Made by a program: the position numbers and the translations under genes. A stretch of 26,138 nt of DNA from a virus: positions 1-26,138 of the IMG/VR virus record IMGVR_UViG_3300036861_000877; one strand, given 5' to 3'. Shown one piece after another: positions 5,805 through 23,905 of this stretch. Numbering within the stretch: the stretch's first letter is position 1; each line of letters starts with the position of its first letter. The notes below the pieces were generated by a model that worked only from the letters and a program-made list of their open reading frames with translations, was not told the origin of the DNA and made no database searches.

Positions 5805-6082
5805 CACGGGCGCCCTCGAATGTGAGGGCGGTGGCCCGGGCGGTGAGAGCGTTGGGTCTCGGGCCTGAGCATGATGCGTTGGTGGCATTGGCGCGTTCGT
5901 TGGCGGTGGCGGTCGACATGAGCCTGGAGCAGGACGCGGGGTTGTGGCGTGAGTATCGCCAGGCGCTAAAGGCATTGGCTGAGGCGGGTGTGTCCGGTGG
6001 CGATGACGGTGGAGCAGCAGCATTTCTCGTCTCGATCTCGACACCTCGCCGAGCCGAGATGGGCGACTCCGAGACGTCCTGA
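5801..6082 (+). CDS. Terminase small subunit (probable)
   Basis: 93 aa from GTG 5801, in a GTGA overlap with the HNH stop. All-helical sequence with LVALARSLAVAVD and LWREYRQALKALAEAG, a pattern frequent in small terminases of actinobacteriophages. It lies between HNH and large terminase, the usual place. It would recognise the packaging site on phage DNA and recruit the large subunit. The last ~80 bases are read in two frames because the large subunit starts inside it. Assignment relies on position and composition, not on a clear motif. Confidence 0.7.
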   Translation: MTRAPSNVRAVARAVRALGLGPEHDALVALARSLAVAVDMSLEQDAGLWREYRQALKALAEAGVSGGDDGGAAAFLVSISTPRRAEMGDSETS

Positions 6083-7478
6083 GCGGCTGTCGTTCGGGGA
6101 CGGCATTGTGGCGGTGGCCCGCCAGTTGGGGTCGCCGTTGATGGCATGGCAGGAGCAGGTCGCGCTCGTCGGCGGCGAGTTGGTTGAGCATCCGTCCGGG
6201 ATATTGGTGCCTGCGTATCGGGAGGTCGTGTTCACCGTTCCTCGTCAGAACGGCAAGACGCTGCTCCTGTTGGCGTGGGAGCTGCAGCGAGCGTTGGGTT
6301 GGGGTGCGGCGCAACGGATCGCGTACTCGGCGCAGACGGGTGCGGATGCTCGCAAGAAGCTGCTCGAGGATCAGGTGCCGGTGTTGGAGCCGCGCCGGCG
6401 ACTGTTGGGGATCCGGACGATCCGGCGTGCGAACGGGAGTGAGGCGATCGAATTCCGCAACGGATCGCGGATCGGCTTGTTGGCGTCGACGGAGGACGCC
6501 GGCCACGGCAAGACGGTCGATCTCGCGGTGAAGGACGAGCTCTTCGCCGATGCGGATGATCGTCGGGACCAGACGTTGGTGCCGGCCATGGCGACCCGGC
6601 CGGCCGCGCAGGTGGTGGCATGTTCGACGGCGGGTACCGACGAGTCGCTGCCTTGGAACGCGGCTGTGGAGCGGGGCCGCGCCGCGGTTGATTCGGGGCG
6701 GTCGACGGGCACCGCGTATTTCGAATGGTCGGCGGTGGCGGACGCGGATGCGGATGATCCGGCGGTGTGGCGGTCGGCTATGCCGGCGTTGGGTCTGACG
6801 ATCGACCTCGAGGTGGTCCGTCACGCTCGCGCGACGCTCAAGGACGGCGAGTTCCGGCGGGCGTTCATGAACATTCCGACCCGGTCGGAAGTTCGGGTGA
6901 TCCCCGCTCAGATGTGGACGGCGGTGTGTTCCGAGACGGCGGTGCCGGACGGCAGTCTGGTGTTCGGGTTGGATGTGAATCCGGAACGATCGTCGGGGTC
7001 GATCGCGGTGGCGTCACGAGCGTCGTTGCCGGTGGTGGAGCTGGTCGAGCATCGGGCGGGGGTCGGCTGGCTGATCGACCGGGCCGCCGAGCTCGACCGC
7101 CGGCACGGTCCGACCGAGTGGTGTGTGGATGGTTCGGGGCCGGCCGGATCGTTGATCGCCGATCTCGAGCGGGCCGGACTGAACGTCCGGGCGTTCTCGT
7201 TGAAGGAGCTCGTCGCCGCGTCAGCCGGGTTCTACGACGCGGTGATCCAAACCCGGATCCGGGTGCGAAGTCACGCGGCGTTGGATGAGGCGGTCGCGGG
7301 TGCGGTGCGCCGCACGGTTGGGGATGCGTGGGCGTGGGCACGCCGGTCGGCTTCGGTGAACGTGTCGCCGTTGGTGGCTGCCACATTGGCGTTTGCGGGG
7401 GCGCGTCTCGATGTGGAGCCAGCCGGTCCGGCCCGGGTGATCCTGCTCGACGACTACCTCGACGACGATGAGGAGTGA
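6003..7478 (+). CDS. terL: Terminase large subunit
   Basis: 491 aa from ATG 6003 (GTG 5988 would add five). ATPase: Walker A PRQNGKT (80-86), Walker B-like region TVDLAVKDEL (171-180) with acidic Asp178-Glu179, and a coupling motif ACSTAGT (206-212). Nuclease: FGLDVNPE with Asp324 and CVDGSG with Asp376, the acidic residues of the RNase H-like fold, plus a late acidic segment (ALDEAV). Length is normal for the family. It pumps DNA into the prohead through the portal and cuts the concatemer. It overlaps the small subunit by 80 bases, which indicates coupled translation. Confidence 0.93.
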   Translation: MTVEQQHFSSRSRHLAEPRWATPRRPERLSFGDGIVAVARQLGSPLMAWQEQVALVGGELVEHPSGILVPAYREVVFTVPRQNGKTLLLLAWELQRALGWGAAQRIAYSAQTGADARKKLLEDQVPVLEPRRRLLGIRTIRRANGSEAIEFRNGSRIGLLASTEDAGHGKTVDLAVKDELFADADDRRDQTLVPAMATRPAAQVVACSTAGTDESLPWNAAVERGRAAVDSGRSTGTAYFEWSAVADADADDPAVWRSAMPALGLTIDLEVVRHARATLKDGEFRRAFMNIPTRSEVRVIPAQMWTAVCSETAVPDGSLVFGLDVNPERSSGSIAVASRASLPVVELVEHRAGVGWLIDRAAELDRRHGPTEWCVDGSGPAGSLIADLERAGLNVRAFSLKELVAASAGFYDAVIQTRIRVRSHAALDEAVAGAVRRTVGDAWAWARRSASVNVSPLVAATLAFAGARLDVEPAGPARVILLDDYLDDDEE

Positions 7479-7481
7479 ACC

Positions 7482-7661
7482 GTGGTACGTGCGTTCGCTG
7501 CCATCGTCGGTTCGTTGCGGCGTGCCTGGCTCGTCGAACTCGCCGGCGCCGGGCTGCTGATCGGCGGGTTGTATGCAGCGTGGGGGACGGCGGCGGCGCT
7601 GATCGGCGGTGGGGTCGCGTTGTTGCTCAAAGCGTTCGAGCTCGATGTCGGTGAAGCATGA
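7482..7661 (+). CDS. Small two-helix membrane protein
   Basis: 59 aa from GTG 7482, three bases after the terminase stop and ending in ATGA overlap with the portal. Two hydrophobic segments (LAGAGLLIGGLYAAW and AAALIGGGVALLL) joined by a short turn, with a charged ending. It is just short of 60 residues. Small membrane proteins between terminase and portal recur in actinophages, but the role is unknown. Confidence 0.7.
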   Translation: MVRAFAAIVGSLRRAWLVELAGAGLLIGGLYAAWGTAAALIGGGVALLLKAFELDVGEA

Positions 7662-9142
7662 CGGTCCTCAAGAAGCTGGTCGGCGGTCAACGTACGGTGC
7701 AGGCGACGACCTGGGGGACCTGGCCGGGTGACATGCCGGCGGGCGCATGGTCGGGTGTGTCGTTGGACAGCGCCCAGTCGGTACAGCAGCTCCTCACCGT
7801 GTACGGCTGCAACCGGTTCATCTGCGACGGGATTGCCACACTGCCGGTCGATGCCCTGCGTGATACGCCGGCCGGGACACTCGAGGTCACCAAGCCGGGA
7901 TGGCTGATCCAGCCGACCATCGACCTCGACTTCATCGCTTGGGTTACTCAGGTCTTGACGTCACTGCTGCTCGACGGCAACGCGTACTGCTGGATCCGCC
8001 GGTCGCCGCTCGCGCAGATCGAAGAGCTCGTCCCGCTGAACCCGGCGAAAGTCAAGGTGACCCGCGAGCAGGGCACGCGCGTGTACCGGATCGGCGGTCA
8101 GCCGATCGACCGGTATGACCTGCTGCACATCCCGGCGGTCATGTTTCCTGGCGCTGAGATCGGCCTGTCGCCGATCGAGGCCGCGCGCCAGACGGTCGGC
8201 AAGGGCATGGCGACCGAAGAGTTCGCCGCCCGGTTCTTCGGCCAGGGCCTGAACATGTCCGGGGTCATCGAGACGCAGGACGACATCACCGACGAATCGG
8301 CCCGCGCGATGGCGAACACATTCGCCCGCCGCCACTCCGGCAAGACCAAATCCCATCTCCCGGCCGTCCTGACACGGGGCGCGAAGTGGACAGCGACCGG
8401 CGTGACGAACGAACAGGCCCAGTTCCTGCAGACCCAGCAGTTCACCGCGGCGCAGATCTGCGCGTTCCTGTTCCTCATCGACCCGACCGAGTTCGGTGTG
8501 TCGATGGACAAAGGATCCAGCGTCACCTACGCGAACCTCGAGCAGCGCAACGCCCGTAAGGTACAGGTGACGTTCCTGCCATGGATCATCCGGATCGAGA
8601 ATGCGCTGTCGAGTCTGATCCGCCAGTCGAACCGTTACGTGAAGTTCAACGTCAACGGCCTGTTGCGTGCCGATCTGTCCAGCCGATACGAGTCGTACAA
8701 GACCGGCATCGAGGCTGGCTTCCTGTTGCCGAACGAGGCGCGCGACTTCGAGGATCTCCCGGCGCTCGACGGCGGCGACAGTTTCCCGGCACCGGCAACA
8801 CCGCCGGCACCTACGACGAACAGCGCACCGGTGATCCACAACCATGTGCAACCAGCACAGGCACCGGTCGTGAACAACCGGTTCGAGATGCCACCGACAC
8901 CGGCGGCGACAGTACACAACCACGTCTCGCCACCGGTCGTGAACAACCGCTTCGACGTTCCGGTCCCCGAGGTGCATGTCGATGCGCCGATCGTCACGGT
9001 CGAAGCGCCGGCGGTGACGGTTGCCGCGGCGGAGATCCCGGCGCCGGTCGTATCGGTTCTGCCCGCCCCGGAACGTTCGAAGCGTCTCGAATACAACGAG
9101 CTCGGCGACATCGTCCGGGTCGTCGTCGAAGAGGGGGACTAG
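7658..9142 (+). CDS. HK97-type portal protein with repetitive C-terminal extension
   Basis: 494 aa. The body (about 1-370) has the HK97 portal features: VYGCNRFICDGIATLPV, LTSLLLDGNAYCWIRR, EELVPLNPAKVKV, LHIPAVMFPGAEIGLSPIE, and the crown/wing region FFGQGLNMSGVIE. The dodecamer forms the DNA channel and terminase dock. From about residue 385 the protein becomes Pro/Val/Ala-rich: HNHV and PVVNNRF each occur twice, then VxVxAP runs, ending RSKRLEYNELGDIVRVVVEEG. Similar C-terminal tails ending in an 'R-x-DIVRV' type strand occur in actinophage portals. The insert is probably flexible or beta-structured inside the head. Confidence 0.9.
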   Translation: MTVLKKLVGGQRTVQATTWGTWPGDMPAGAWSGVSLDSAQSVQQLLTVYGCNRFICDGIATLPVDALRDTPAGTLEVTKPGWLIQPTIDLDFIAWVTQVLTSLLLDGNAYCWIRRSPLAQIEELVPLNPAKVKVTREQGTRVYRIGGQPIDRYDLLHIPAVMFPGAEIGLSPIEAARQTVGKGMATEEFAARFFGQGLNMSGVIETQDDITDESARAMANTFARRHSGKTKSHLPAVLTRGAKWTATGVTNEQAQFLQTQQFTAAQICAFLFLIDPTEFGVSMDKGSSVTYANLEQRNARKVQVTFLPWIIRIENALSSLIRQSNRYVKFNVNGLLRADLSSRYESYKTGIEAGFLLPNEARDFEDLPALDGGDSFPAPATPPAPTTNSAPVIHNHVQPAQAPVVNNRFEMPPTPAATVHNHVSPPVVNNRFDVPVPEVHVDAPIVTVEAPAVTVAAAEIPAPVVSVLPAPERSKRLEYNELGDIVRVVVEEGD

Positions 9143-9508
9143 GTGCCGCACGTTTTCATCGATCAGGACAGCTATTACGACTGGGTGTTGACGCCGAAGG
9201 ATCGGGTGCCGCCGAAGGCTGTAGTGACCGATTCGCAGTTCGAGGGGATGGTGCTCGTCCGCACCCTCTACAACGAGCCCACGCGCACGGAAAGCCACAT
9301 CCCGGACGAGTTCTTGGCGCAGAACGCTGCTGACCGTGCCGCCGCCGGTCTCGAACCGGATCCCCTTGGCGTGCTGGTACGCCATTTCGCCGATGCCGTG
9401 ATGCCGGCGCATTGCCCGCCGGGCTCGGTACGCAAGGTCACGTCCCCCGACTTCCCGGAGCTCGGTAAGGCGCTCGACGCAGTATTCGCGACGAAGGCGG
9501 CAACATGA
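9143..9508 (+). CDS. Hypothetical head-region protein
   Basis: 121 aa from GTG 9143, directly after the portal TAG. Rich in aromatics at the start (DSYYDWVLTPKDRV), then a polar centre and a Cys/Pro segment (MPAHCPPGSVRK). No recognised domain. It ends in an ATGA overlap with the next structural gene. Position suggests a head-associated or assembly role; nothing else supports one. Confidence 0.68.
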   Translation: MPHVFIDQDSYYDWVLTPKDRVPPKAVVTDSQFEGMVLVRTLYNEPTRTESHIPDEFLAQNAADRAAAGLEPDPLGVLVRHFADAVMPAHCPPGSVRKVTSPDFPELGKALDAVFATKAAT

Positions 9509-10338
9509 GCGAGAGTACGGTCCTCGACGATCTGTGGACACCCGCTAAGACGCCGTTGTATGCGCCGTCGCGGGCCTTCACGTCGCTGTTCTCTAACCGG
9601 GTGCGGGACCGTCACGGACGACTCAAGCATGTGTCGCCGTGGCATCGCAACGTGCGTACCGACTCCGGTGACGATTGGCAGGCGATGATCATGGAAGGCG
9701 GCCCGGACGCCACCGGTTTCACCACCGCGAACGGTGCCGCCACCTCAGTCACCGCCACATCACTCACGACGGGGACGGGTTTCCCGACGACCGCCCGGAT
9801 CAACGGCGCGACCGGCGCGCTCGCAGGACGTTGGGTGGCGGTCGGGCCGAACTCGGCTGGCGCCGGTACGACGGTCATGGGGATCATCCTGTCGAATACG
9901 GCGACAGTCCTCACCGTCGAACGCTGGGTGACAGCCGCGGCACCCTTCACGACCGCCACCACTCCGAACGGGACCGGCACCTATCAGATCCTTCCGGGCG
10001 CCTGCCCCGCCTGGTACATGGGCCTTTCGACCACCGTCCAGTCCGGCACCGCGACAGACACCGTTCTCGCCGGCGAGCTCACCACTGGCGGCATGACCCG
10101 CATCCAATACACCACCCTGACCCACACGCTGGCGTCGGCGTCGTATTCGTTGGCGAACACCTTCACGGCGTCCGCGACGAACACGATCAACAGCGAGGCG
10201 ATCTTCACGGCGCAAGGCACCGCCGGTGTGGGTGCCGCCGCGACCTCCGGGGTGATGGTGTTCGAGAATGCGGAGCCGAACGCCCCGACCCTCGTCTCCG
10301 GTGACACACTCGCCCAGACGGTCTCGGTATCGTACTGA
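9505..10338 (+). CDS. Putative virion structural protein, Thr/Ala/Gly-rich
   Basis: 277 aa. The first ~65 residues are charged and basic (SNRVRDRHGRLKHVSPWHRN); the rest is very rich in Thr, Ala and Gly with few charges, typical of beta-structured virion proteins such as fibres or decoration proteins. Phrases like TTGTGFPTTARINGATG and TLTHTLASASYSLANTFTAS recall surface-exposed beta-strands. Located between portal and protease, unlike the common order. Family not recognised; a minor head or fibre protein is the likeliest reading. Confidence 0.72.
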   Translation: MSESTVLDDLWTPAKTPLYAPSRAFTSLFSNRVRDRHGRLKHVSPWHRNVRTDSGDDWQAMIMEGGPDATGFTTANGAATSVTATSLTTGTGFPTTARINGATGALAGRWVAVGPNSAGAGTTVMGIILSNTATVLTVERWVTAAAPFTTATTPNGTGTYQILPGACPAWYMGLSTTVQSGTATDTVLAGELTTGGMTRIQYTTLTHTLASASYSLANTFTASATNTINSEAIFTAQGTAGVGAAATSGVMVFENAEPNAPTLVSGDTLAQTVSVSY

Positions 10339-10347
10339 GCCCTGGCA

Positions 10348-10575
10348 ATGACGACCTGGACGAAGACGACAACCAGTAGCCGGATCATCTATGACAACGG
10401 TGCCGGTCACCGCTATGTCGTCCACACCGACTGTCTCACGGCCGAAGGCGTCGATCATTGGCATGCCGAAGAATCCTTTCCATGGGATCAAGATGCGGCG
10501 GGCCGGGCGACGGTGGGTGGCATCACGTCATGGTGGGAGGAGTACGTGGTCGGTCTCGGTGACACGATCGCCTGA
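10348..10575 (+). CDS. Small hypothetical protein
   Basis: 75 aa from ATG 10348, nine bases after the previous stop. Trp-, His- and acidic-residue-rich (HWHAEESFPWDQD, SWWEEYVVGL). No known motif is visible. It lies inside the structural operon between two putative structural genes. Ribosome-binding site is weak. A four-codon ATG frame (10577-10588) lies between its stop and the next start. Confidence 0.58.
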   Translation: MTTWTKTTTSSRIIYDNGAGHRYVVHTDCLTAEGVDHWHAEESFPWDQDAAGRATVGGITSWWEEYVVGLGDTIA

Positions 10576-10591
10576 GATGAGTCGATAAGCG

Positions 10592-12325
10592 ATGGCGTAC
10601 GCGAGCCCGACGAACACACTGTTCCCTGCCCCTTCTGTTGTCGGGTATGGCGCGAACAACCGGAAGCTCCAGGACACGCAGCTCGGCGCCCACGATGATC
10701 AGACGAAAGCCGACTACGGCACCGCCGGCGCGACGAATCCTTGGATTCTCTGCAAACCGCAAGCCTCGAACTCGACCCGTCAGGCGGACCCTCCACCCAC
10801 GACTGGCCAGGATTTCGGGTACGACGCGCTGCAAGCCGACATGAACGTCAGCGGTGTGAACGGTGCCCTATCAACCGACGCCCGCTGGCTGACCGGCGAC
10901 CGGACGTTCCATCTGAGCCTCAACAACTCCGCCGCCGATGTGGCACCCGGCGCGGGTGTCTGGCAGATCAAGGTGATGGAGTTCAAACGGGACTCGGCGG
11001 GGGCTCTCACCAACCTCAGCGTCACCGCGAAGGACATCCCGCTGACGGCCGGGAACCTGCCGGTCGGCAACATCGCGATGGACATCACGGTCACGACCGA
11101 CATCTCGGCGACCAAGTTCGAGGTCGACGAGGTCTACTACGTCGAGTTCTGGATGAAAGGCCAGGGGTTAGCGGTCACGGGCCGTAACGTCGCGCTCGGT
11201 GCCGGTACCGCTCCTGCGGTCGGCGGACAGGCCACGTCGTTCGCCTGTTCGCTTCGCATCGCGTTCCGACGTTCACCGACGACAGAGACAACGGCGACGC
11301 AGCCGGCCGCCGCTACGGTCAGCCGTGTCCTCGTGCTCGGCCGCACACGTACCGAAACGCTGACTGTCGCCGAGACGGTCACCCGGATCTACAACGGATC
11401 TCGCACCGTCACGGTCACGACGCCTACACAACCCACCGCCGATACCATCACTCGAGGCGGCTCAGGATTCAACCGTTCACCTAGCGCCGAAACGGTCGGG
11501 CCCGCGGCGGACACTGTCACACGCATCTACGGTGCGGTACGCAGCCGAACCGAAGCATTGACGCCGAGCGAGCTCATCACCCGCGTGTTCACCGGTGCCC
11601 GTACGGTGACCGAAACTGTCGGTACCGCGGCAGATGTCATCAGCCGGATCGTCAACTTCCCGCGGCTCATCACCGTGACGGTCGGCGCCGCAGCCGACAC
11701 GATCGCCCGAGTGTTCTCGGGTGCCCGGACCCGAACCGAAACCGTCGGTCCGGCCGCCGACACGGCGACCCACACGTTCACCGGGGCTCGTACGGTCAGC
11801 GAATCCTTGACTGCCGCCGACACAATTGCCCGCGCGTTCATCGGTGCCCGGACCGCCACCGTGCCGCTGAGTGCCGCGGCAGATGTCGTCACACGGCTCG
11901 TCACGTTCTTCCGGACCCGTACCGAGACGCTGTCGCTCAGCGACACGGTCGCGCGGGTCTTCACAGGTGCCCGGACCCGAACCGAGACAGTCGGTCCGGC
12001 CGCAGATTCCGCCACCCGGATCCTGACCGCGAACCGAACCATCGGCGAAGGGCCGGGCGACTATCCGCTCAACGACGGAGCTCGTGCCATCGCGGGGATC
12101 GTCAAAGACGAGGACACCGGCGCCGCCGTCTCCGGCGTGACCGTCTACCTGTTCCGTACCTCCGACCTCCAATACGTAGGTCGCAGCACCGTCACCGACG
12201 TCAACGGGAACTATTCGTTCCCGCGCGACACCGGCGACAGCAACACCTACTTCACGGTCGTGGCAACAGATGGCGGGGCACCCCCCCGCCATGGCATCTC
12301 CGACCAGGCACTCGTCCCGGCCTAA
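10592..12325 (+). CDS. Tandem-repeat structural protein with C-terminal carboxypeptidase-regulatory-like domain
   Basis: 577 aa. Residues 1-240 look like a beta-rich virion domain (ADVAPGAGVWQIKVMEFKRD, VDEVYYVEFWMKG). Residues about 245-485 are about a dozen tandem units of 20-21 residues with pattern R-T-x-T-E-T-V/L-x-x-A-A-D-T-V/I-x-R-x-F-x-G. Residues about 495-577 form a beta-sandwich like carboxypeptidase-regulatory or SdrD-B domains (GIVKDEDTGAAVSGVTVYLF, DVNGNYSFP). The layout (anchor, repeat shaft, end domain) is that of a fibre. Ser/Thr content makes it a conceivable glycan acceptor. Start context lacks a good Shine-Dalgarno. Family not recognised as a whole. Confidence 0.75.
   Translation: MAYASPTNTLFPAPSVVGYGANNRKLQDTQLGAHDDQTKADYGTAGATNPWILCKPQASNSTRQADPPPTTGQDFGYDALQADMNVSGVNGALSTDARWLTGDRTFHLSLNNSAADVAPGAGVWQIKVMEFKRDSAGALTNLSVTAKDIPLTAGNLPVGNIAMDITVTTDISATKFEVDEVYYVEFWMKGQGLAVTGRNVALGAGTAPAVGGQATSFACSLRIAFRRSPTTETTATQPAAATVSRVLVLGRTRTETLTVAETVTRIYNGSRTVTVTTPTQPTADTITRGGSGFNRSPSAETVGPAADTVTRIYGAVRSRTEALTPSELITRVFTGARTVTETVGTAADVISRIVNFPRLITVTVGAAADTIARVFSGARTRTETVGPAADTATHTFTGARTVSESLTAADTIARAFIGARTATVPLSAAADVVTRLVTFFRTRTETLSLSDTVARVFTGARTRTETVGPAADSATRILTANRTIGEGPGDYPLNDGARAIAGIVKDEDTGAAVSGVTVYLFRTSDLQYVGRSTVTDVNGNYSFPRDTGDSNTYFTVVATDGGAPPRHGISDQALVPA
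11335..12045 (+). repeat. Coding tandem repeats, 60-63 bp period (first protein)
   Basis: About 12 degenerate units. The best-conserved pair, 11720-11760 and 11966-12006, is nearly identical over 41 bases, indicating fairly recent duplication; others keep the protein pattern only. Confidence 0.8.
12270..12292. other. 9-bp perfect hairpin within a coding region
   Basis: ATGGCGGGG (12270-12278) is inverted at 12284-12292 (CCCCGCCAT) with a five-base loop; it contains a run of seven C. It lies near the end of the repeat-protein gene, 33 bases before its stop. Confidence 0.6.
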
Positions 12326-12334
12326 GGCGGCCCG

Positions 12335-13210
12335 ATGCCGCAACACCCCGACGTCTTCATCTCCACGCGGCTGACATCGAACGCAGCCGACGTCCTCATC
12401 TACACGTCCTCAGCCGGGACCGGCACGAACTACGCGCGAACCGTCACCGAGACTGTCGGTGCCGCGGCCGACACGGTCACGAGAGTGTTCGCGGGTGCGC
12501 GGACCACTACGGAGACGCTCGCCGCCGCCGAGACCATCTCGCGTGGCTTCATCGGCTCACGCACCGTTACCGAGACCGTCTCGTCGTCGCAGACGATCAC
12601 CCGCGCCCTCATCACGGCCCGAGCGAACAGCGAGTCCGTCGCCGTCAGCGACACGGTGTCACGCGTCTTCGCCGGTGCCCGCACAATCAGCGAGACCGTC
12701 TCGCTGTCTGAATCCATCGCGCGGGTCCTCGTCCTCGCCCGCACTCTCTCCGAGACGCTCACCGCGACCGACACGGTCAGCCGTCTCGTGTCCGGTACCC
12801 GAACCGTCACGGAGCTCGTCACCTTCGCCGAGACCGTCACTCGACTGTTTGTCGGGGCGCGGACAATCACCGAAACCGTCGGCCCGGCGGCCGACACGGT
12901 CACCCGTCAAATCACACCGGGTGCGGGGCAAGCGGAATCGTCGAGCAGCGCATCTGGCCGACTTCCGTATCCGCTCGGCCGAGCTGTACGACTGCCGGCG
13001 AAGTTCAAAAAGCCGCTACCTGAGGATGAATGGTTCAAGGTCAAAATCGACCTCGAAGCCAGGGAACTGGCCATCCTCGAGCGAGCAAAACGGCAGACCC
13101 GCGTTCGCGCCAGGCTGCACCGGCGGCGCACCATCACCAATCTCGTCGCATGCGGCGCATTGACGCCCATGTCATCGCCTGCGTCGGACTTTGAGGAGCC
13201 ACCAACATGA
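12335..13210 (+). CDS. Second tandem-repeat protein with basic helical C-terminus
   Basis: 291 aa from ATG 12335. After about 34 residues come eight 20-residue units (about 35-197) of the same RTxTETVxxAADTVTRVFxG pattern as the preceding protein, showing common descent. The remaining ~90 residues differ: a Ser-rich linker, Pro/Lys segment (RLPAKFKKPLPEDEWF), and a basic helix (LEARELAILERAKRQ, then RARLHRRRT) that could attach to DNA, head or another protein. It ends in ATGA overlap with the protease. Probable fibre/decoration protein; exact role unknown. Confidence 0.75.
   Translation: MPQHPDVFISTRLTSNAADVLIYTSSAGTGTNYARTVTETVGAAADTVTRVFAGARTTTETLAAAETISRGFIGSRTVTETVSSSQTITRALITARANSESVAVSDTVSRVFAGARTISETVSLSESIARVLVLARTLSETLTATDTVSRLVSGTRTVTELVTFAETVTRLFVGARTITETVGPAADTVTRQITPGAGQAESSSSASGRLPYPLGRAVRLPAKFKKPLPEDEWFKVKIDLEARELAILERAKRQTRVRARLHRRRTITNLVACGALTPMSSPASDFEEPPT
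12436..12920 (+). repeat. Coding tandem repeats, ~60 bp period (second protein)
   Basis: Eight units in register with those at 11335-12045, each starting with an Arg-Thr-like dipeptide and ending with an Arg plus hydrophobic/Gly motif. Confidence 0.8.
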
Positions 13211-13995
13211 CGATCACCGAACCGACGGAACAGGAACGGCAACGGCTCGCCCCCAAACGAGGCTTGGCGCCAATCGTGCGCGGCTACCTCGTCAGCGATG
13301 TCGAGATACGGGCGCAGGCCGGCGAGTCGACGCTCATCGACTTCGTCGGCCACGCATCCGTCTACGACAAGGGTTACGACATGTACGGCGGCCCCGATAA
13401 GGGCGGCTGGACTGAGTTCGTCGACGGCGGTGCCGGCAAGAAGACCTTGTCCGAGAATCCGGATGTCGCGTTCCTCGTCAACCATGAAGGCTTGACGCTC
13501 GCCCGTACCAAGGCGGGCACCCTGAAACTGTCGGAGGACAAGATCGGCCTCGCGGTCGCCGCGACGCTCGATACGCGGGTGTCGACGGTGAATGACATCG
13601 CCATCCTGATGGATGCCGGCGCGCTCGACGAGATGTCGTTCGCCTTTCGCATCACGAAACAGAAGTGGTTGGACGCGGACGGCGAAGAGGTGCCGTGGTG
13701 GGATCTGTCGGGCATCGAACGGCACATCTCCGAATACAACCTGCATCGTGGCGACGTCTCGATCGTCAACCAGGGCGCCAACCCGTACACCGACGCGAAG
13801 ATGCGGTCGCTCACCGAACTGTTGCGTGACGCCACCGCGCAGCCTGACGACCTCGACGAGGAAGAGCTCCGCCAGGCGGTCGCCTACCTCGAAGAGCTCC
13901 TCAACCGTGACGCCACCGACGCCGACCCGGCGATGCTCGTCACGATCAACCTGGCGCAACGCCGCCAGTTCGTCGCCAAACACGACTTCCTGTAA
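13207..13995 (+). CDS. Prohead maturation protease (HK97 gp4 / S78-like)
   Basis: 262 aa; a GAGGAGCC ribosome-binding site precedes ATG 13207, in ATGA overlap with the previous gene. Catalytic His93 in FLVNHEGLTLAR and nucleophile Ser144 in DEMSFAFRI are in the usual contexts; DVSIVNQGANPYTDA is the conserved strand after them. The C-terminal acidic helix (DDLDEEELRQAVAYLEELL) is probably self-cleaved or scaffold-binding. The enzyme digests the capsid delta domain after assembly. Protease followed by capsid is the HK97 order. Confidence 0.92.
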   Translation: MTITEPTEQERQRLAPKRGLAPIVRGYLVSDVEIRAQAGESTLIDFVGHASVYDKGYDMYGGPDKGGWTEFVDGGAGKKTLSENPDVAFLVNHEGLTLARTKAGTLKLSEDKIGLAVAATLDTRVSTVNDIAILMDAGALDEMSFAFRITKQKWLDADGEEVPWWDLSGIERHISEYNLHRGDVSIVNQGANPYTDAKMRSLTELLRDATAQPDDLDEEELRQAVAYLEELLNRDATDADPAMLVTINLAQRRQFVAKHDFL

Positions 13996-14004
13996 CACCC
14001 GCGT

Positions 14005-14038
14005 AGCCGGAGCCCAAGCCGGAGCCCAAGCCGGAGCC
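14005..14038. repeat. 12-bp tandem repeat (AGCCGGAGCCCA), ~2.8 copies
   Basis: Copies start at 14005, 14017 and 14029; the last is cut one base into a mismatch. It lies in the untranslated stretch between protease and capsid. Confidence 0.85.
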
Positions 14039-14047
14039 GCAACGGCG

Positions 14048-14086
14048 GCCACCACTCGGAGCCACCACTCGGAGCCACCACTCGTG
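14048..14086. repeat. 13-bp tandem repeat (GCCACCACTCGGA), three copies
   Basis: Copies at 14048-14060, 14061-14073 and 14074-14086 (last two bases altered). Adjacent to but unrelated to the 12-bp array. Confidence 0.85.
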
Positions 14087-14143: not shown

Positions 14144-15454
14144 GTGACCGACATTCTCGAATACACGAAACGGCTCCGCGAGGAGCGGATGCGTCTCATC
14201 GACGAAGCCAAAGGCGTCTACGACGAGGCCATCGAAGCCAAACGGGCCGTCACCAGCGAAGAGACCGCCAAAGTCGATCAGCTCGACGCCCGCATCGATG
14301 AGATCGAAGCCGAAGTCCGCACCCTCGACGAGCGGGAACGCCGCGAACGTGAAGCGGCGACCAGCCGGGAAGCGTTCGAACGGCAACACGGCACCCAAGG
14401 CGCCCGCCGGCAGGTCGAGAACGAAGCAGAGATGATGCGTCGTTGGGCACGCGGCGAGCTCGGCAAGGAACTCGAAATCCCGATCGCCGGGGCAGCCGAA
14501 GAACTCCGGATGATCCGCGGTGGCGCCACCGCCGCCGACATCGCCGAATACCGGGCGCTCGCCTGGGACACCGGCAACGTCGCATCCGCGGTGCCAGTCA
14601 CCACCGCCCGGTCGTTGTACGAGATCCTCGAAGCAACGATCGCCATGTTCCGGGCGCCGACGACGAAGATCAACACGTCGTCGGGTGAGCAGATGAAGTT
14701 CCCGAAGATCACGGCACATGGCATCGCCACCCAGGTATCTGGTCAGGGCACCGCCCTCGCGGGTACCGATCCGGCGTTCAACTCGGTGGCCCTCGACGCG
14801 TTCAAGTACGGCGAGCTCGTCCGGATCGCCTCCGAAGTGATCAGCGACGCGGCGATCGACATCATCGGGTTCATCACCCGTGACGTCGGCCGTGCCCTCG
14901 GCCGCAACATCGACATCGACCTTGTCGTCGGATCCGGTACCGGAAAGCCGCAAGGTGTCATATCAGCGGCGATCACCGGCGCGTCAGGCACGATCGCCAC
15001 CGGCGGCTCACTCATCACGCCCACCTACGAGAACCTCGTCGACCTCGCCTACTCGGTGAACGACGCCTACCGGGCAGGCGGCAGTGCCGCGTGGTTGATG
15101 CGTGACGCGACCGCTGGTGTGCTCCGCAAGCTCCGTGATGGCGCCGGCGGCACCATCGGCGCCGTCCTGTGGGAACCGTCGCAGGTGTCCGGCATCCAGT
15201 TCAACCAGCCGGACCGCCTCCTCGGCTTCCCCGTCTACACCGACCCGAACGTCGCGTCGTTGGCGTCGAACGCGAAGGTGATGGTGTTCGGCGACTTCTC
15301 CGCCTACTACATCCGGACCGTCGGGCCGGTCGTCCTCGAACGTGACGACAGCCGGTTCTTCGACACGGACGAGACCGCGATTCGCGGCAAGTGGAGGGTC
15401 GACGGGGACGTCGTGGACGTCACGGCCTTGAACCTCTTGAAGCAGTCAGTCTGA
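14144..15454 (+). CDS. Major capsid protein, HK97 fold, with N-terminal delta domain
   Basis: 436 aa from GTG 14144, with AAAGGTG about five bases upstream; the frame is open further upstream, but only across the protease gene and repeat leader. Residues 1-100 are a charged coiled coil (KRLREERMRLIDEAK, DQLDARIDEIEAEV), the delta/scaffold domain removed by the protease. The rest follows the HK97 fold: WDTGNVASAVPVTTARSLYEIL, PTTKINTSSGEQMKFP, DIIGFITRDVGRALGRNIDIDLVVGSGTGKPQG (spread over about 240-275), and a C-terminal FGDFSAYYIRTVGPVVLERDD strand. It forms the icosahedral shell. Confidence 0.93.
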   Translation: MTDILEYTKRLREERMRLIDEAKGVYDEAIEAKRAVTSEETAKVDQLDARIDEIEAEVRTLDERERREREAATSREAFERQHGTQGARRQVENEAEMMRRWARGELGKELEIPIAGAAEELRMIRGGATAADIAEYRALAWDTGNVASAVPVTTARSLYEILEATIAMFRAPTTKINTSSGEQMKFPKITAHGIATQVSGQGTALAGTDPAFNSVALDAFKYGELVRIASEVISDAAIDIIGFITRDVGRALGRNIDIDLVVGSGTGKPQGVISAAITGASGTIATGGSLITPTYENLVDLAYSVNDAYRAGGSAAWLMRDATAGVLRKLRDGAGGTIGAVLWEPSQVSGIQFNQPDRLLGFPVYTDPNVASLASNAKVMVFGDFSAYYIRTVGPVVLERDDSRFFDTDETAIRGKWRVDGDVVDVTALNLLKQSV

Positions 15455-15565: not shown

Positions 15566-15730
15566 ATGCCTGTTCATCGTGTACCGGTCAGCGAGGTCGA
15601 GGCGTTCGTCGCCGATCTCGAGCAGCGTGAACGGATCGTCTCGACGGAAGTGGTGGGTGACGGTGCCGTGCTGATCTTCACGGAACCGAAGGATCAGCGG
15701 CGCGCGCCAGGTGAGCAGGAAACACGATGA
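15566..15730 (+). CDS. Small hypothetical protein
   Basis: 54 aa; ATG 15566 is used because the longer frame from 15512 would start inside the hairpin. The product has a helix-plus-strand look (VSEVEAFVADLEQ, then GDGAVLIFTEP), like a small alpha/beta binding domain. It ends in ATGA overlap with the glycosyltransferase. Upstream it shares CCCCCCTGCGAG with the leader of the tail chaperone gene. Function unknown. Confidence 0.62.
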   Translation: MPVHRVPVSEVEAFVADLEQRERIVSTEVVGDGAVLIFTEPKDQRRAPGEQETR

Positions 15731-17628
15731 AGTTCCTGCTACACGGCAACGCGCCCCATGTCCGTACCGGGTATGGGGTGCAGATCGCCAACCTCGCGGA
15801 ACGGCTCGTCCGTGCCGGCCATGACGTCGCGATCTCCTCCACCTACGGTCAGCAGGGCGGCGCCGGCATATGGATCATCCCATCCACCCAACAACCCGTC
15901 GTCGTCTACCCCTGCGGCTACGAAGTGAACTCGAACGACATCATCCACGGCCATGCCCAACACTTTTTCGATGGCGACCCGAAGGGCGGATGGATCATCA
16001 CCTGCCTCGACGTATGGGCGATGCCGAACCCGCTCCTCGCCGACTATCAGGTCGCGGCGTGGACACCGGTCGACCATTTCCCCGCGCCACCTGATGTGAT
16101 CAAGTTCTTCCATCGGACCGGCGCCATCCCCGTGACGATGAGCCGGTTCGGGGAACGACTGCTCTTCAATGCCGGGCTCGACCCTGTCTACATTCCGCTG
16201 TCGGTCGACACCCGGGTTTACAAGCCGACCCCGATGCTCACTCTTGCTGACGGCCGTGAATTGACCGCCCGCGCGTTGTGCGGTATCCCTGAGGATGCGT
16301 TCGTGGTCGGCATGGTCGGGATGAATAAAGGGTGGGCGCGGGACCGTAAAGGGTTCAATGAGGCGTTCCGGGCGTTCGGCCGGTTCTGGGTTGCTCATCC
16401 GGAAGCGGTTCTTTACATGCATGCGGAGAAGTTCGGTGGGGCGGAAGGGATCAACCTCGTCGAGCTCGCCGAGCATGCCGCCGTTCCTGAGCATGCGTTG
16501 ATCTGGTGCGACCAGTATGCCTACCGACTCGGTGTCCCCGCCGAGGTGATGGCCGCGACCTACACGGCCATGGACGTGCTGCTCGCCCCTTCGCACGGCG
16601 AAGGGTTCTGTGTCCCGCTCATCGAGGCGCAGGCATGCGGGACGCCGATCATCGCGACGGACTTCTCGTCGCAACCGGAACTTGTCGGCGCCGGGTGGAT
16701 GGTGACCGGCCAGCCGGAATGGGATCCGGCGCAGCATGCGTCGTACGTATGCCCGTCGATCGTCGACGTGCTCGACAAGCTCGAGGAGGCATACGCCGCC
16801 GACCGAGAAGCGATGGGCGAGACCGCGATCACGTTCGCGTCGGGCTACGACGCCGACCGGGTGTTCGCCGACTATTGGCAGCCGTTCCTCGCCCGCCTCG
16901 AACCTGCGCCGATACCGCCACCGAGCTATGACCGCCAGCCGATCCCGGAGACCGACGGGGTGGCGGTCATCGTCCCGGCGATGCGTCCCGAGAATCTCGT
17001 TCGGCTCATCGGCTCGTTCAATGAGACGAACGACGGATCCGCCGAACTCGTGATCGTCGCCGACAGGCAGTCGGGGATCAGCGGCGATGTGATCCTCGAC
17101 GAAGGTCGGATAACGAGCTTCGCGGAGAAGGTGAACGCCGGCTTCGAAGCAACCCTCCACTCATGGGTCTTGCTCGTCGGCGACGACGTCGTGTTCCGGC
17201 CCGGCTGGATCAAGGCGGCCCGCACGCTCTCCGACCGGTTCGACGTGATCGGCACCAACGACACTGCTGGGGAACCGAAGAACCCGGATGTCGCCGCGGG
17301 TCGCCACGCCGACCACTTCTTCGTGCGGCGTGCGTACGTCGAAGCGGAGGGCGGCTGCCTCGACGGGCCTGGCGAGCTCGCGCCGACCGTGTACGGCCAT
17401 TGGCACGTCGATCGGGAAATGATCGAGCTCGCCCGGGCCCGCGGGGTGTTCACCCCCTGCCTCGAATCCGTCGTCGAACATCTCCATCCCGGATACGACG
17501 GTCGCGAAGACCTACGCCAAGCCGACGCGGTCTATCTGAAAGCGCTCGACACTGCGGAGGCGGACGCGAAGACGTTCCGGTCGCGGTTGCCGTTGATCCA
17601 CATGCAGCGGGTCGGGGCGAGACGGTGA
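15727..17628 (+). CDS. Bifunctional glycosyltransferase: GT4-like plus GT2-like domains
   Basis: 633 aa. Residues 1-385 are GT-B: N-terminal KFLLHGNAPHVRTGYGVQ with the glycine loop, and a C-terminal Rossmann half with PSHGEGFCVPLIEAQACGTP (from about 287), the E-x7-E nucleotide-sugar motif of GT4. From about 413 a GT-A domain begins (VAVIVPAMRPENLVRLIGSF), with VGDDV (about 485, the D-x-D-like metal site) and HFFVRRAYVEAEGG, WHVDREM and HLHPGYD late motifs. Both halves look intact. It would transfer sugars from nucleotide sugars to an acceptor, plausibly a virion protein since it sits just after the capsid gene. Sugar and acceptor cannot be read from the sequence. Confidence 0.88.
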   Translation: MKFLLHGNAPHVRTGYGVQIANLAERLVRAGHDVAISSTYGQQGGAGIWIIPSTQQPVVVYPCGYEVNSNDIIHGHAQHFFDGDPKGGWIITCLDVWAMPNPLLADYQVAAWTPVDHFPAPPDVIKFFHRTGAIPVTMSRFGERLLFNAGLDPVYIPLSVDTRVYKPTPMLTLADGRELTARALCGIPEDAFVVGMVGMNKGWARDRKGFNEAFRAFGRFWVAHPEAVLYMHAEKFGGAEGINLVELAEHAAVPEHALIWCDQYAYRLGVPAEVMAATYTAMDVLLAPSHGEGFCVPLIEAQACGTPIIATDFSSQPELVGAGWMVTGQPEWDPAQHASYVCPSIVDVLDKLEEAYAADREAMGETAITFASGYDADRVFADYWQPFLARLEPAPIPPPSYDRQPIPETDGVAVIVPAMRPENLVRLIGSFNETNDGSAELVIVADRQSGISGDVILDEGRITSFAEKVNAGFEATLHSWVLLVGDDVVFRPGWIKAARTLSDRFDVIGTNDTAGEPKNPDVAAGRHADHFFVRRAYVEAEGGCLDGPGELAPTVYGHWHVDREMIELARARGVFTPCLESVVEHLHPGYDGREDLRQADAVYLKALDTAEADAKTFRSRLPLIHMQRVGARR

Positions 17629-18377
17629 CCGTCTTTGACACGTTCATGATCAACAACGAGCTCGACATGCTGGAATGTCGTCTCGTCGAACTGGAAGACG
17701 TACCGAACCTAATGCACATCGCCGTCGAGGCCGACGTCGACCACCAGGATCATCCCAAGCCCTACTACCTCACCGAGAATCGTGATCGGTTCGCACCCTG
17801 GAAAGAACGTGTGGTCGTCGTACGGGTTACCGGCCTGCCATCCGCCGTTGACGCGCCGGATCCATGGGCACGCGAACATGCCCAACGTGAACATGTTGCC
17901 GACGCTCTCGGCTACGCCGCGGCGGACGATGTGGTGTTGCACGGCGATATCGACGAGATCCCCACCGCGCTCGTCGCACGTAACATCCGTCCGCAAGGCA
18001 TCGTCGCTCTCGAGCAGCGAGGCCATTTCTGGTCGTGCCGCTGGCAGTATCCGATCCCATGGCGCGGCACCGTCGCCGGCCGGGCCGGTGATATCACCTC
18101 GTTCGCTCGGATGCGTGACGCCCGCAACGTCGCCAAACCGCTCCCCGATGCCGGGTGGCATCTCTCCTGGCTCGGCGGCCCCGATATCGCCATGGCGAAG
18201 ATTGGGTCGTTCTGCCATCCGGAGGTCCGGGATCGGATCATCAAGGGTCTTGCCGACAACCAGTTCCTGCGCGACGGCGTCCATGTCGACGGCGTCAAGA
18301 TGCAGCGTTGCGAGATCGACCGGACCTTCCCCCGCTACGTGTACGAGGGCCGGTGCCCTGATTCATGGACACTGTGA
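17625..18377 (+). CDS. GT17-like glycosyltransferase
   Basis: 250 aa from GTG 17625 in GTGA overlap with the previous stop; the frame is open further upstream, but only inside the first transferase. Family 17 (N-acetylglucosaminyltransferase III-like) hallmarks are present: VFDTFMINNELDMLECRL, IAVEAD, ENRDRFAPWKERVV, REHAQREHV, VLHGDIDEIP (about 104-113, acidic metal-binding motif), and LSWLGG with KIGSF late. The family adds N-acetylglucosamine-type sugars in eukaryotes; bacterial and phage members have varied substrates. It overlaps the methyltransferase start by 13 bases, so all three cassette genes are translationally linked. Confidence 0.85.
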   Translation: MTVFDTFMINNELDMLECRLVELEDVPNLMHIAVEADVDHQDHPKPYYLTENRDRFAPWKERVVVVRVTGLPSAVDAPDPWAREHAQREHVADALGYAAADDVVLHGDIDEIPTALVARNIRPQGIVALEQRGHFWSCRWQYPIPWRGTVAGRAGDITSFARMRDARNVAKPLPDAGWHLSWLGGPDIAMAKIGSFCHPEVRDRIIKGLADNQFLRDGVHVDGVKMQRCEIDRTFPRYVYEGRCPDSWTL

Positions 18378-19444
18378 CCGTCCCGGTCTTCACGGAAGAC
18401 TGGTTTGGGGAGGCGTCGCAGGAGGCGCTCGCCGATCTGTATCGGCGGGTCGCTCATCTCGACGGTGACATTGTCGAGGTCGGGTCGTGGGAGGGCCGGT
18501 CGACGATTGTGCTTGCGAACGCGGCGGCGCCGGCGCTGGTGCATGCGGTCGATACCTGGGAAGGGTCGCCGGGTGAGATCAGCGCCGGACTCGCCGCCGA
18601 ACGTGACGTGTACGCGACGTTCGTCGCCAACATCGAAGCGGCGACCGCGGGGAACGTCGAGGCGCACCGATCTGATTGGCGTGCTTACTTCGCTGACCAT
18701 CGCGCGCCGGTCCGGTTCGTGTTCATCGATGCCGCCCATACTTACGAGGAGGTGGCCGACAACATCGCGGCTGTCCTGCCGCTGCTGGTGCGGGGCGGGA
18801 TCATCTGCGGCGACGACATGCATCATCGTCCCGTCCGTGAAGCGGTCCTCGCCCTGCTTCCCGACGCTCAGGCAATTGCCACGTTGTGGTGCTGGCAGAA
18901 GCCGACGCTCGCCGAGCGGTACCGGCAGTTGTGCAGCACGCCCTCGGACATTTACGAGCATCTCCCGACGTTCGTGCGGCTCGTCGAACGGCTGGATGCA
19001 CAGCATGTGATTGAGCTCGGTACTCGTACCGGCGTTTCCACGGTCGCCTGGCTTTACGGGCTCGACAAGACCGGCGGGCGGCTGACATCGGTCGACATCG
19101 ACCCGGCCCCGGACATCGGCGGGTGGCCACACTGGACGTTCCGCCAATCCGACGATCTCGCTCCCGAGCTACTCGCCGAACTCGAGCCGGCCGACATCGT
19201 GTTCATCGACACATCGCACCAGTACGACCACACACTGATGGAGCTGCACGTGTACCGCCATCTTGTACGGTCCGGCGGTCTGCTCGTATGCCATGACACC
19301 GAACTTGCCCGCCCCCAGGGCACGCCGCCGGGTGACCCGCAGTTCCCGGTGAAACGAGCCATCGAGGCGTTCTGTAGAGCCGAGCAGCTCGACGCGACGT
19401 TCGACCTTCGCTGCTGGGGGTTGGCAACAATCGAGGTGCCGTAA
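18365..19444 (+). CDS. Tandem-duplicated class I methyltransferase (Methyltransf_24-like x2)
   Basis: 359 aa comprising two homologous SAM-dependent halves. Half 1: IVEVGSWEGRST (about 36-47, motif I) and VFIDAAHTYEEV with GGIICGDD. Half 2: VIELGTRTGVST (from about 215) and VFIDTSHQYDHT with SGGLLVCHDTE. The shared order shows internal duplication. Such enzymes often methylate glycans or sugar rings in cell-surface or glycan-modification clusters. Here they follow two glycosyltransferases, so O-methylation of the transferred sugar is the natural guess. It ends TAATG into the head-tail connector gene, placing the cassette inside the morphogenesis operon. Confidence 0.85.
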   Translation: MDTVTVPVFTEDWFGEASQEALADLYRRVAHLDGDIVEVGSWEGRSTIVLANAAAPALVHAVDTWEGSPGEISAGLAAERDVYATFVANIEAATAGNVEAHRSDWRAYFADHRAPVRFVFIDAAHTYEEVADNIAAVLPLLVRGGIICGDDMHHRPVREAVLALLPDAQAIATLWCWQKPTLAERYRQLCSTPSDIYEHLPTFVRLVERLDAQHVIELGTRTGVSTVAWLYGLDKTGGRLTSVDIDPAPDIGGWPHWTFRQSDDLAPELLAELEPADIVFIDTSHQYDHTLMELHVYRHLVRSGGLLVCHDTELARPQGTPPGDPQFPVKRAIEAFCRAEQLDATFDLRCWGLATIEVP

Positions 19445-22375: not shown

Positions 22376-23905
22376 ATGGCTAGGGGCACCACCGTCGAGG
22401 TTGTCTTCACCGGTGACACCACCGGGTTTCAGAAGGCTGCTGCGACGATCGAAACCCGAACCGCGTCGTTCGGGTCGAAGATGGGGACGGTGTTCGGCGC
22501 GATCGGCGGGGTCGCGGCGGCGAAGGGTGTGTTCGACTTCGCGAAGGGCAGCATCGCTGCATTCACCGACGCGGAGCAGTCAGCAGCGAAACTCGACGAT
22601 GCGTTTCAGCGGTTCCCGAAGCTGGCGGACACCAACGCCGCCGCGCTCCGCAAACTGAACTCGGCGCTCGAGCGGAAAACGAAGTTCGATGATGACGCCA
22701 CCGCCTCCGGACAAGCCGTGCTGGCCCAATTCAATCTGACCGGCACACAGATCCAAACGTTGACGCCGCTCCTGCAAGACTATGCGGCGAAAACCGGCCA
22801 AGACCTGCCCGCGGCAGCGGATGTGCTGGGCAAAGCATTGCTGGGGAAGGGGAAGGCGCTCGCCGCCGTCGGTATCAAGTTCAAGGATGCCGGATCGGTG
22901 GCAGCCAACTTTGATCAGATCATCGGCGGGTTGCGTACCCAGGTGGGTGGATTCGCGGAGAAGGAAGGCGCCACCGCCGCCGGGAAAGCCGCCATCCTCA
23001 AGAACCAGTTCGGCGAGTTGCAGGAGAAGGTCGGCGAGAAGCTCTTGCCGGTGTTGACGAAACTGTCCGAGATCGGGTTGAAGATCGTCGAGTTCTTCTC
23101 GAACTTGTCGCCGGGAATGCAGACCGCGATCGGGGTCGTCGGCGGGTTGCTCGTCGTCGTGTTGGCGATCACCAAGGCAACGCAGGCGTGGACCGCGGTA
23201 CAGGCGGCGTTGAACGTGGTGATGGACGCGAACCCGATCGTGTTGATCGGTTTGGCGATCGCCGCTCTGGTCGTTGGGATCATCTACGCCTATCAACACT
23301 CCGAAACATTCCGCGACATCGTGAAGGGCGCGTTCCACGCGGTCGGCGAAGCAGCCGGGTTCATGAGAGACCTCGTGGTCGGAGCGATCCAGTTCGTCGT
23401 CGACAAGTGGCTCGCAGCCGCCGAATGGATCGTCAGAGCCGCCGCGACCGCCTTCGGATGGGTTCCCGGGATCGGCGGCAAACTCAAAGACGCCGCGAAA
23501 GACATGGAGGACTTCCGCGACAACGTCAACCGCGCACTCGACGGCATCAAGTCGAGCCATGACATCAAACTCAACATCGAAACCGTCGAAGTCATCAAAG
23601 GTACCGGCGGGAGAACGATCGAGGCTCGGGCGGCCGGCGGACCGGTCACCGCCGGCCGGCCCTACATGGTCGGTGAGCACGGACCGGAAGTGTTCTGGCC
23701 GGAAGCCTCCGGGATGATGATCCCGGCGGGCGGCGGGCCGTCCGGAGCGGGCGGCCTCACGAACGTGACCTTCGGTCCCGGTGCGGTCACCATCGTCAAA
23801 GCGGCCGGCGACCCGGTCAACATCGAGGATGGTCAGCGGATCATCGACGCCATCTCGCGCGCCGCGAACCGCGGCTACAAGCTCCCAGCCGGTGCCGTGG
23901 CATGA
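22376..23905 (+). CDS. Tape measure protein
   Basis: 509 aa. Starts with a TMP-type domain (GTTVEVVFTGDTTGFQKAAA, then TASFGSKMGTVFGAIGG), a helical middle, two hydrophobic segments (about 250-265 and 287-305, VLIGLAIAALVVGIIYAY), and the usual C-terminal AAGGPVTAGRPYMVGEHGPE (about 421-440). It is short for a TMP; the usual rule of about 0.15 nm per residue gives a tail near 75 nm. It sets tail length and enters the host membrane. Stop overlaps the next ATG. Confidence 0.9.
   Translation: MARGTTVEVVFTGDTTGFQKAAATIETRTASFGSKMGTVFGAIGGVAAAKGVFDFAKGSIAAFTDAEQSAAKLDDAFQRFPKLADTNAAALRKLNSALERKTKFDDDATASGQAVLAQFNLTGTQIQTLTPLLQDYAAKTGQDLPAAADVLGKALLGKGKALAAVGIKFKDAGSVAANFDQIIGGLRTQVGGFAEKEGATAAGKAAILKNQFGELQEKVGEKLLPVLTKLSEIGLKIVEFFSNLSPGMQTAIGVVGGLLVVVLAITKATQAWTAVQAALNVVMDANPIVLIGLAIAALVVGIIYAYQHSETFRDIVKGAFHAVGEAAGFMRDLVVGAIQFVVDKWLAAAEWIVRAAATAFGWVPGIGGKLKDAAKDMEDFRDNVNRALDGIKSSHDIKLNIETVEVIKGTGGRTIEARAAGGPVTAGRPYMVGEHGPEVFWPEASGMMIPAGGGPSGAGGLTNVTFGPGAVTIVKAAGDPVNIEDGQRIIDAISRAANRGYKLPAGAVA

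Follow-up and report, generated by a model that had tools for sequence, protein, structure and literature searches.

Two adjacent genes of an uncultured phage, here called A and B, encode proteins built from the same Thr/Ser-rich repeat of about 20 residues and lie among genes for the head and packaging machinery, which raises the question of what such proteins contribute to the particle. The window (the whole stretch of DNA analysed, 26,138 bases) contains a head and packaging cluster with, in order, genes for a terminase (5988-7478), a portal protein (7658..9142; PF04860, E 3.5e-66), X (9143..9508), Y (9505..10338), a 75-residue open frame (10348..10575), A (10592..12325), B (12335..13210), an S78 prohead protease (13207..13995; PF04586, E 6e-23), an HK97-type major capsid protein (14144..15454; PF05065, E 4e-48) and a glycosyltransferase and methyltransferase cassette (15727..19444; PF00534, 2e-11; Glyco_transf_17, 1e-12; Methyltransf_24, 7e-34). 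All features from the portal gene to the cassette are on the plus strand. X, a small conserved partner, has 121 residues, a GTG start and a 4-bp overlap with Y, which encodes 277 residues and is the proposed fibre adaptor. The 75-residue frame has no Pfam or PHROG family and no match among the relative loci compared (E ≤ 0.01).

A syntenic relative of the window, IMGVR_UViG_3300049584_000018 (L001), contains both repeat genes, with 8 units in its A protein (L001:6595-8094) and about 16 in its B protein (L001:8096-9475). Its portal protein also has a C-terminal tail similar to that of the window portal, which extends past the Pfam match (ending at residue 366 of 494) and is abundant in short Val/Pro/His strand-like motifs (8760-9139). 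The closest portal protein is that of a Pontimonas phage, so that a planktonic actinobacterium is a tentative guess for the host. Two short tandem repeats, with units of 12 bp and 13 bp and each with 2.8 copies at 100% match, occupy the gap between the protease and capsid genes (14005-14084). A tail-region protein truncated by the window end (23902-26136) carries two LamG/ConA-like lectin domains (PF13385, 3.6e-52).

Proteins A and B and their repeat unit

Protein A (577 residues) consists of a shaft between two end domains. The N-terminal domain (10592..11269) has no relatives among the loci compared and no Pfam match, while the C-terminal domain (12041..12322) is 62% identical to its L001 counterpart and resembles CarboxypepD_reg/SdrD B-like domains at a sub-threshold level (PF13715, E 9e-4, 19.6 bits, cut-off 32.2). 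The shaft of A (11270..12034, residues ~227-481) comprises about 12 units of 20-24 residues, some degenerate. Protein B (291 residues) has a shaft of 8 units (12437..12919, residues 35-195) and a C-terminal part (12920..13207) in which AlphaFold2 predicts a long helix (residues 230-272). Nearly all units of the two proteins are 20 or 21 residues long. The first-pass annotation, made from the DNA letters, had described both frames, these unit counts and the consensus R-T-x-T/S-E-T/S-V/L...D-T-V/I-x-R-x-F-x-G, and each of these descriptions is correct. Identity autocorrelation detects the period in B at lag 20 (62 matches versus a maximum of 41 in 500 shuffles) and in A at lags 41 and 21 (84 and 81 versus a shuffle maximum of 71); B also has a weaker half period of 10 residues (48 versus 41).

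The make-up of the unit was derived from 188 units in nine proteins with a pattern anchored on R1, E/D5, D12 and R16, so that these four positions are conserved by construction. Positions 2, 4, 6, 13 and 15 are mainly Ala, Ser or Thr; positions 3, 7 and 14 are mainly Val, Ile or Leu; position 18 is mainly Phe or Tyr, and Pro is frequent at position 10. A looser pattern finds at least three units in 35 of 38 repeat proteins, with Glu or Asp at position 5 in 80-100% of the units, and fewer than three in the remaining proteins (L038, L041 and L065). In nearly all counted units, the stretch from position 7 to position 12 holds either three or four intervening residues, which accounts for the two lengths of 20 and 21. 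A single loop thus absorbs the change in unit length, and constant length with indels confined to a loop is as expected of a beta-solenoid repeat.

The repeat arrays vary greatly between phages. Counts in relatives range from 2 to 54 units and some arrays carry inserted domains, in agreement with the earlier idea of an exchangeable shaft with differing end domains. The L064 repeat protein has a ConA-like lectin domain inserted. Globular domains also occur within the repeat arrays at L013:7099-9471, L019:7633-12237 and L020:6619-12132, and in L013 a second repeat protein with a different 20-residue SDSVxVTD repeat adjoins the first (9554-11011). Contigs of 41-194 kb were found by profile scans to encode long repeat proteins. 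Active repeat turnover, which had been read from a near-identical 41-bp pair, finds little backing: the pair exists (11720-11760 and 11966-12006, both within A, 38 of 41 bases identical), but units are 56-60% identical in nucleotides within a protein versus 55-57% between proteins or phages, with no clear excess. The 13-residue peptide shared by the pair is identical at 36 of 39 bases versus 30.8 expected from the codon usage of the window, a difference whose P of 0.004 refers to a pair selected as best. Because of this selection, and because likeness within a protein barely exceeds that between proteins, the pair is weak evidence for turnover.

The family had not been recognised on first reading, and profile searches of A and B likewise gave no Pfam or PHROG family above cut-off. 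For the relatives L013, L018 and L064, hits to DUF6651, PilS, CreS_N, Mce4_CUP1 and others sum to values over or near the cut-offs, but single stretches mostly fail. A, B and four Y proteins had no match among 50,697 phage records, scans of genome contigs found no relative, and a search of solved structures by sequence gave nothing useful. The B protein of L001 drew 22 weak records from the phage collection at E ≤ 10, the best of which, cyanophage C48C1, has a different repeat; the repeat protein of L014 drew six, also weak (tape measure proteins and Caulobacter phage Seuss), and that of L013 none. Cyanophage C48C1 encodes a giant protein of another short repeat, of the Y-x-G-x-Y-x-R type (L010:1-8690). 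DNA pattern matches in L008 and L009 were rejected as chance. A narrow literature search found no report of the 20/21-residue repeat or of Y, and we do not claim that they are unpublished.

Linkage of gene Y with the repeat

The linkage between Y and the repeat is strong across unlike phages, so that the proposed adaptor and fibre genes form a genetic pair. Genes related to Y, 38-61% identical, lie upstream of the repeat gene in all strong repeat loci; the weak repeat loci L022-L024 have no Y match. A divergent variant of the repeat (SDSLSIADAIAK) is found at L022:293-1375. A scan with Y alone found 48 loci, 43 after removal of near-identical ones, of which 35 extend at least 4 kb downstream. 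A gene with 20-22-residue repeats follows Y on the same strand in 34 of the 35. When records first found through the repeat are excluded, this holds for 28 of 29 independent loci, and in the 29th, L062, a similar repeat gene lies immediately upstream of Y, so that a repeat gene stands beside Y in 29/29. Among the 28, L065 has 20-residue repeats of different sequence; L041 has two units only. Comparable periodicity was found in none of 373 other plus-strand ORFs of at least 150 residues at these loci, the 374th being the L062 repeat gene itself. Eight other Y loci stop too early to judge, including L038, which has the repeat.

A match to the X profile (E < 1e-3) immediately precedes Y in 17 of the 48 Y loci, at a distance of 30-228 nt from the Y match; these 17 are also the top-ranked loci of the Y scan. 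Profile searches with X against Pfam and PHROG gave no family. The Y protein may bind the repeat protein encoded beside it. The partnership with Y and the breadth of the repeat family are new here; the partner genes X and Y lie just upstream of positions 10592-13210, to which the first-pass annotation was confined. Y can serve as a marker gene: in dozens of uncultured phages, small to very large, it predicts a long candidate fibre built of repeats, and it gives a handle on proteins left blank by the searched libraries.

Predicted fold of the shaft and the role of its Thr and Ser residues

The AlphaFold2 model of B has two strands per unit, with a pLDDT of about 80 in the shaft and a pTM of 0.53. 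A structure search with this model listed mainly beta-helix folds at the top ranks (3lyc: Z 14.2, 2.5 Å over 161 residues), and Foldseek returned no match at E ≤ 0.001. The early suggestion of a beta-solenoid is therefore upheld as regards the two predicted strands per unit and the leading beta-helix matches, but the weight of the model itself is reduced by the tendency of AlphaFold2 to overpredict beta-solenoids for repeats (PMC11795689). In the account of Pratt et al. (2025), perfect repeats were folded by AlphaFold2 into unreal beta-solenoids and diverged natural repeats fared better (PMC11795689).

This bias is one reason to consider that the repeat is instead alpha-helical or largely disordered. 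A unit of 21 residues equals three heptads, R1-E5 and D12-R16 could form i,i+4 helix salt bridges, Ala-rich variants occur in L072 and L014, and the repeat has profile-level contacts with helical families (DUF948, Mce4_CUP1). The two modelled strands per unit and their pLDDT, the Pro/Gly-containing loop and the beta-branched residues of the unit all run counter to a helix, and with a mean identity of 46% in A, and likewise in B, the units are diverged and belong to the class for which methods agreed in that study (PMC11795689). A helical or disordered repeat is therefore unlikely, and on the model the shaft is probably a two-stranded beta-solenoid. The alternation of residues along the unit suggests which side chains would point inward.

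The Thr/Ser content of the repeat invites another reading, namely that A and B are glycan display proteins, glycosylated by the downstream cassette to give a sugar-coated particle. As had been noted, the cassette starts 2.5 kb past B, with the protease and capsid genes between, and it contains GT4-type, GT17 and methyltransferase genes; in L001, a similar cassette follows the capsid gene, and a glycosyltransferase-like gene precedes A. In mycobacteriophages the capsid and tail tube of the virion carry glycans, and the system has glycosyltransferase and methyltransferase genes, as in the window (Freeman 2023, cited in PMC11600133 and PMC12619734). However, the acceptors named in those citing texts are the capsid and tail tube and not a repeat shaft (PMC11600133, PMC12619734). 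At the five small positions, Ser and Thr make up a share of 0.66 in nine genomes with a glycosyltransferase match versus 0.55 in 24 without, with P = 0.09 per genome and P = 0.39 without the window pair; the value of 0.02 obtained per protein arises from counting A and B of one genome twice.

As a general role, glycan acceptance is not supported by the variation at these positions: the Ser/Thr share ranges from 0.29 to 0.91 over 35 proteins, with Ala as the replacement, so the hydroxyl groups are not conserved. Matches to PF00535 or PF00534 occur in 10 of 43 records and in one of seven records of at least 100 kb; the former count covers two glycosyltransferase families and records not all of which show a repeat gene, and it is a lower bound because many records are fragments. 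Pontimonas phage phiPsal1 has such a cassette at the same place, with glycosyltransferase, methyltransferase and glycosyltransferase genes after the capsid gene (L011:6979-9351), but lacks repeat proteins, and the phage collection in which it is included has no match to Y. Glycan display is thus improbable as the function of A and B. The cassettes of the window and L001 may modify the shaft, the capsid or the tail tube. The richness in Thr and Ser looks like small-residue packing and not like a sugar scaffold, which corrects a tempting reading of such sequences.

A candidate fibre module and its known counterparts

The AlphaFold2 model of Y (42 sequences, pLDDT 80.2, pTM 0.72) gave its best PDB alignments with phage virion parts: the HFTV1 tail (Z 10.1), A511 gp105 (Z 9.0) and the GP4 fibre-tail adaptor (Z 8.9), followed by the phi812 arm (Z 8.7), the Bas63 connector (Z 8.1), chain K of the Sf14 neck (Z 7.9) and T4 gp8 (Z 7.6). 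These matches are of moderate quality: the seven leading entries align at rmsd values of 2.2-4.0 Å over 82-120 residues. Foldseek found no PDB match at E ≤ 0.001 and six matches at this threshold among predicted viral proteins, one a named tail protein and the rest unnamed or uncharacterised. As modelled, Y looks like fibre adaptors, baseplate arms and neck whiskers.

We favour, with a probability of roughly 0.68, the interpretation that X-Y-A-B is a virion fibre module in which Y anchors a fibre with a repeat shaft. Y would be the adaptor docking on the particle. A and B would be the fibre proteins, with a shaft of stacked 20/21-residue units whose number would set its length. End or inserted domains, such as the carboxypeptidase-regulatory/SdrD B-like end of A or the lectin domains of relatives, would contact the host surface. 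The lectin-like insertion in L064 and the sub-threshold Ig-like end of A fit a binding role. The fibre would sit on the virion, probably at the neck, and aid adsorption.

The module lies between the portal and protease genes, kilobases from the tail genes, in the window, L001 and L031, and the L031 order (TerL-portal-X-Y-repeat-protease-like gene) is as in the window. A and B might instead decorate the head or act as scaffold proteins there, without taking part in adhesion; their location between portal and protease and the putative head-tail connector genes beside the L022 repeat gene could be cited for such a role. Their linkage to an adaptor-like gene, the appended lectin and Ig-like domains and arrays of up to 54 units, long for a decoration protein, argue the other way and make such a role quite improbable. 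A stronger competitor is a tail or baseplate fibre whose genes lie in the head operon by accident. Y also resembles the baseplate arm and adaptor proteins A511 gp105, phi812 arm and T4 gp8, and in L038 X and Y come after baseplate hub genes. Among 19 records with a portal match, the portal gene is at most 6 kb upstream of Y in ten, further upstream in three, downstream in five and 34 kb away in one; it is thus outside the 6 kb upstream of Y in nine, where it lies either downstream of Y or more than 10 kb from the module. The portal-protease setting shared by the window, L001 and L031 speaks against an accidental place, and a tail fibre is the less likely reading. Since placement is mixed, the product is best called a candidate virion fibre; the neck is the likelier site in the window phage, and a tail site may apply in others.

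We consider it an evenly balanced proposition that uncultured phages share a widespread and undescribed fibre system. It would consist of Y, often with X, and one or two repeat proteins with as many as 54 units of a single 20/21-residue design, in a virus like that of the window, with its 26-kb record, and in viruses with records of 100-190 kb, with unit number setting reach and swapped domains setting binding.

The neck assignment is based on the gene place between portal and protease, which is that of the Sf14 whisker proteins gp30 and gp31 (FDI99_gp127 and FDI99_gp126); other Ounavirinae also have such neck whiskers. Chain K of the Sf14 neck is FDI99_gp126, which appears in the Sf14 paper as whisker gp31 (PMC11821841). 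Residues 166-277 of Y align with this protein (Z 7.9, 2.7 Å over 91 residues), but the Y profile has no sequence match to gp126 or gp127 (E 0.05 and 0.3 in a two-protein search, with scores below zero). The Sf14 whisker proteins, of 166 and 110 residues, are too short to hold such a tandem array, whereas the window has a long repeat protein after Y. As described for Sf14, there are two whisker proteins and a separate adapter, gp37, that links whisker and neck (PMC11821841); Y may therefore resemble the whisker itself and not its adapter.

The GP4 fibre-tail adaptor (8jou), A511 gp105 and the phi812 arm align with Y at Z 8.7-9.0. Entries 8jou and 9fko are fibre or arm parts by title, and A511 gp105 is presumably one as well. 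Only part of Y aligns in these cases, and theirs is a baseplate or tail setting whereas that of the window is a head operon. The neck fibre of Anabaena phage A-1(L) (gp82-gp81-gp80), compared by description only, is likewise anchored, with many repeated parts and a distal carbohydrate-binding module; its shaft is described as built from a separate protein, gp81, present in many copies, whereas the shaft of the window is made of units within one chain (PMC10966104).
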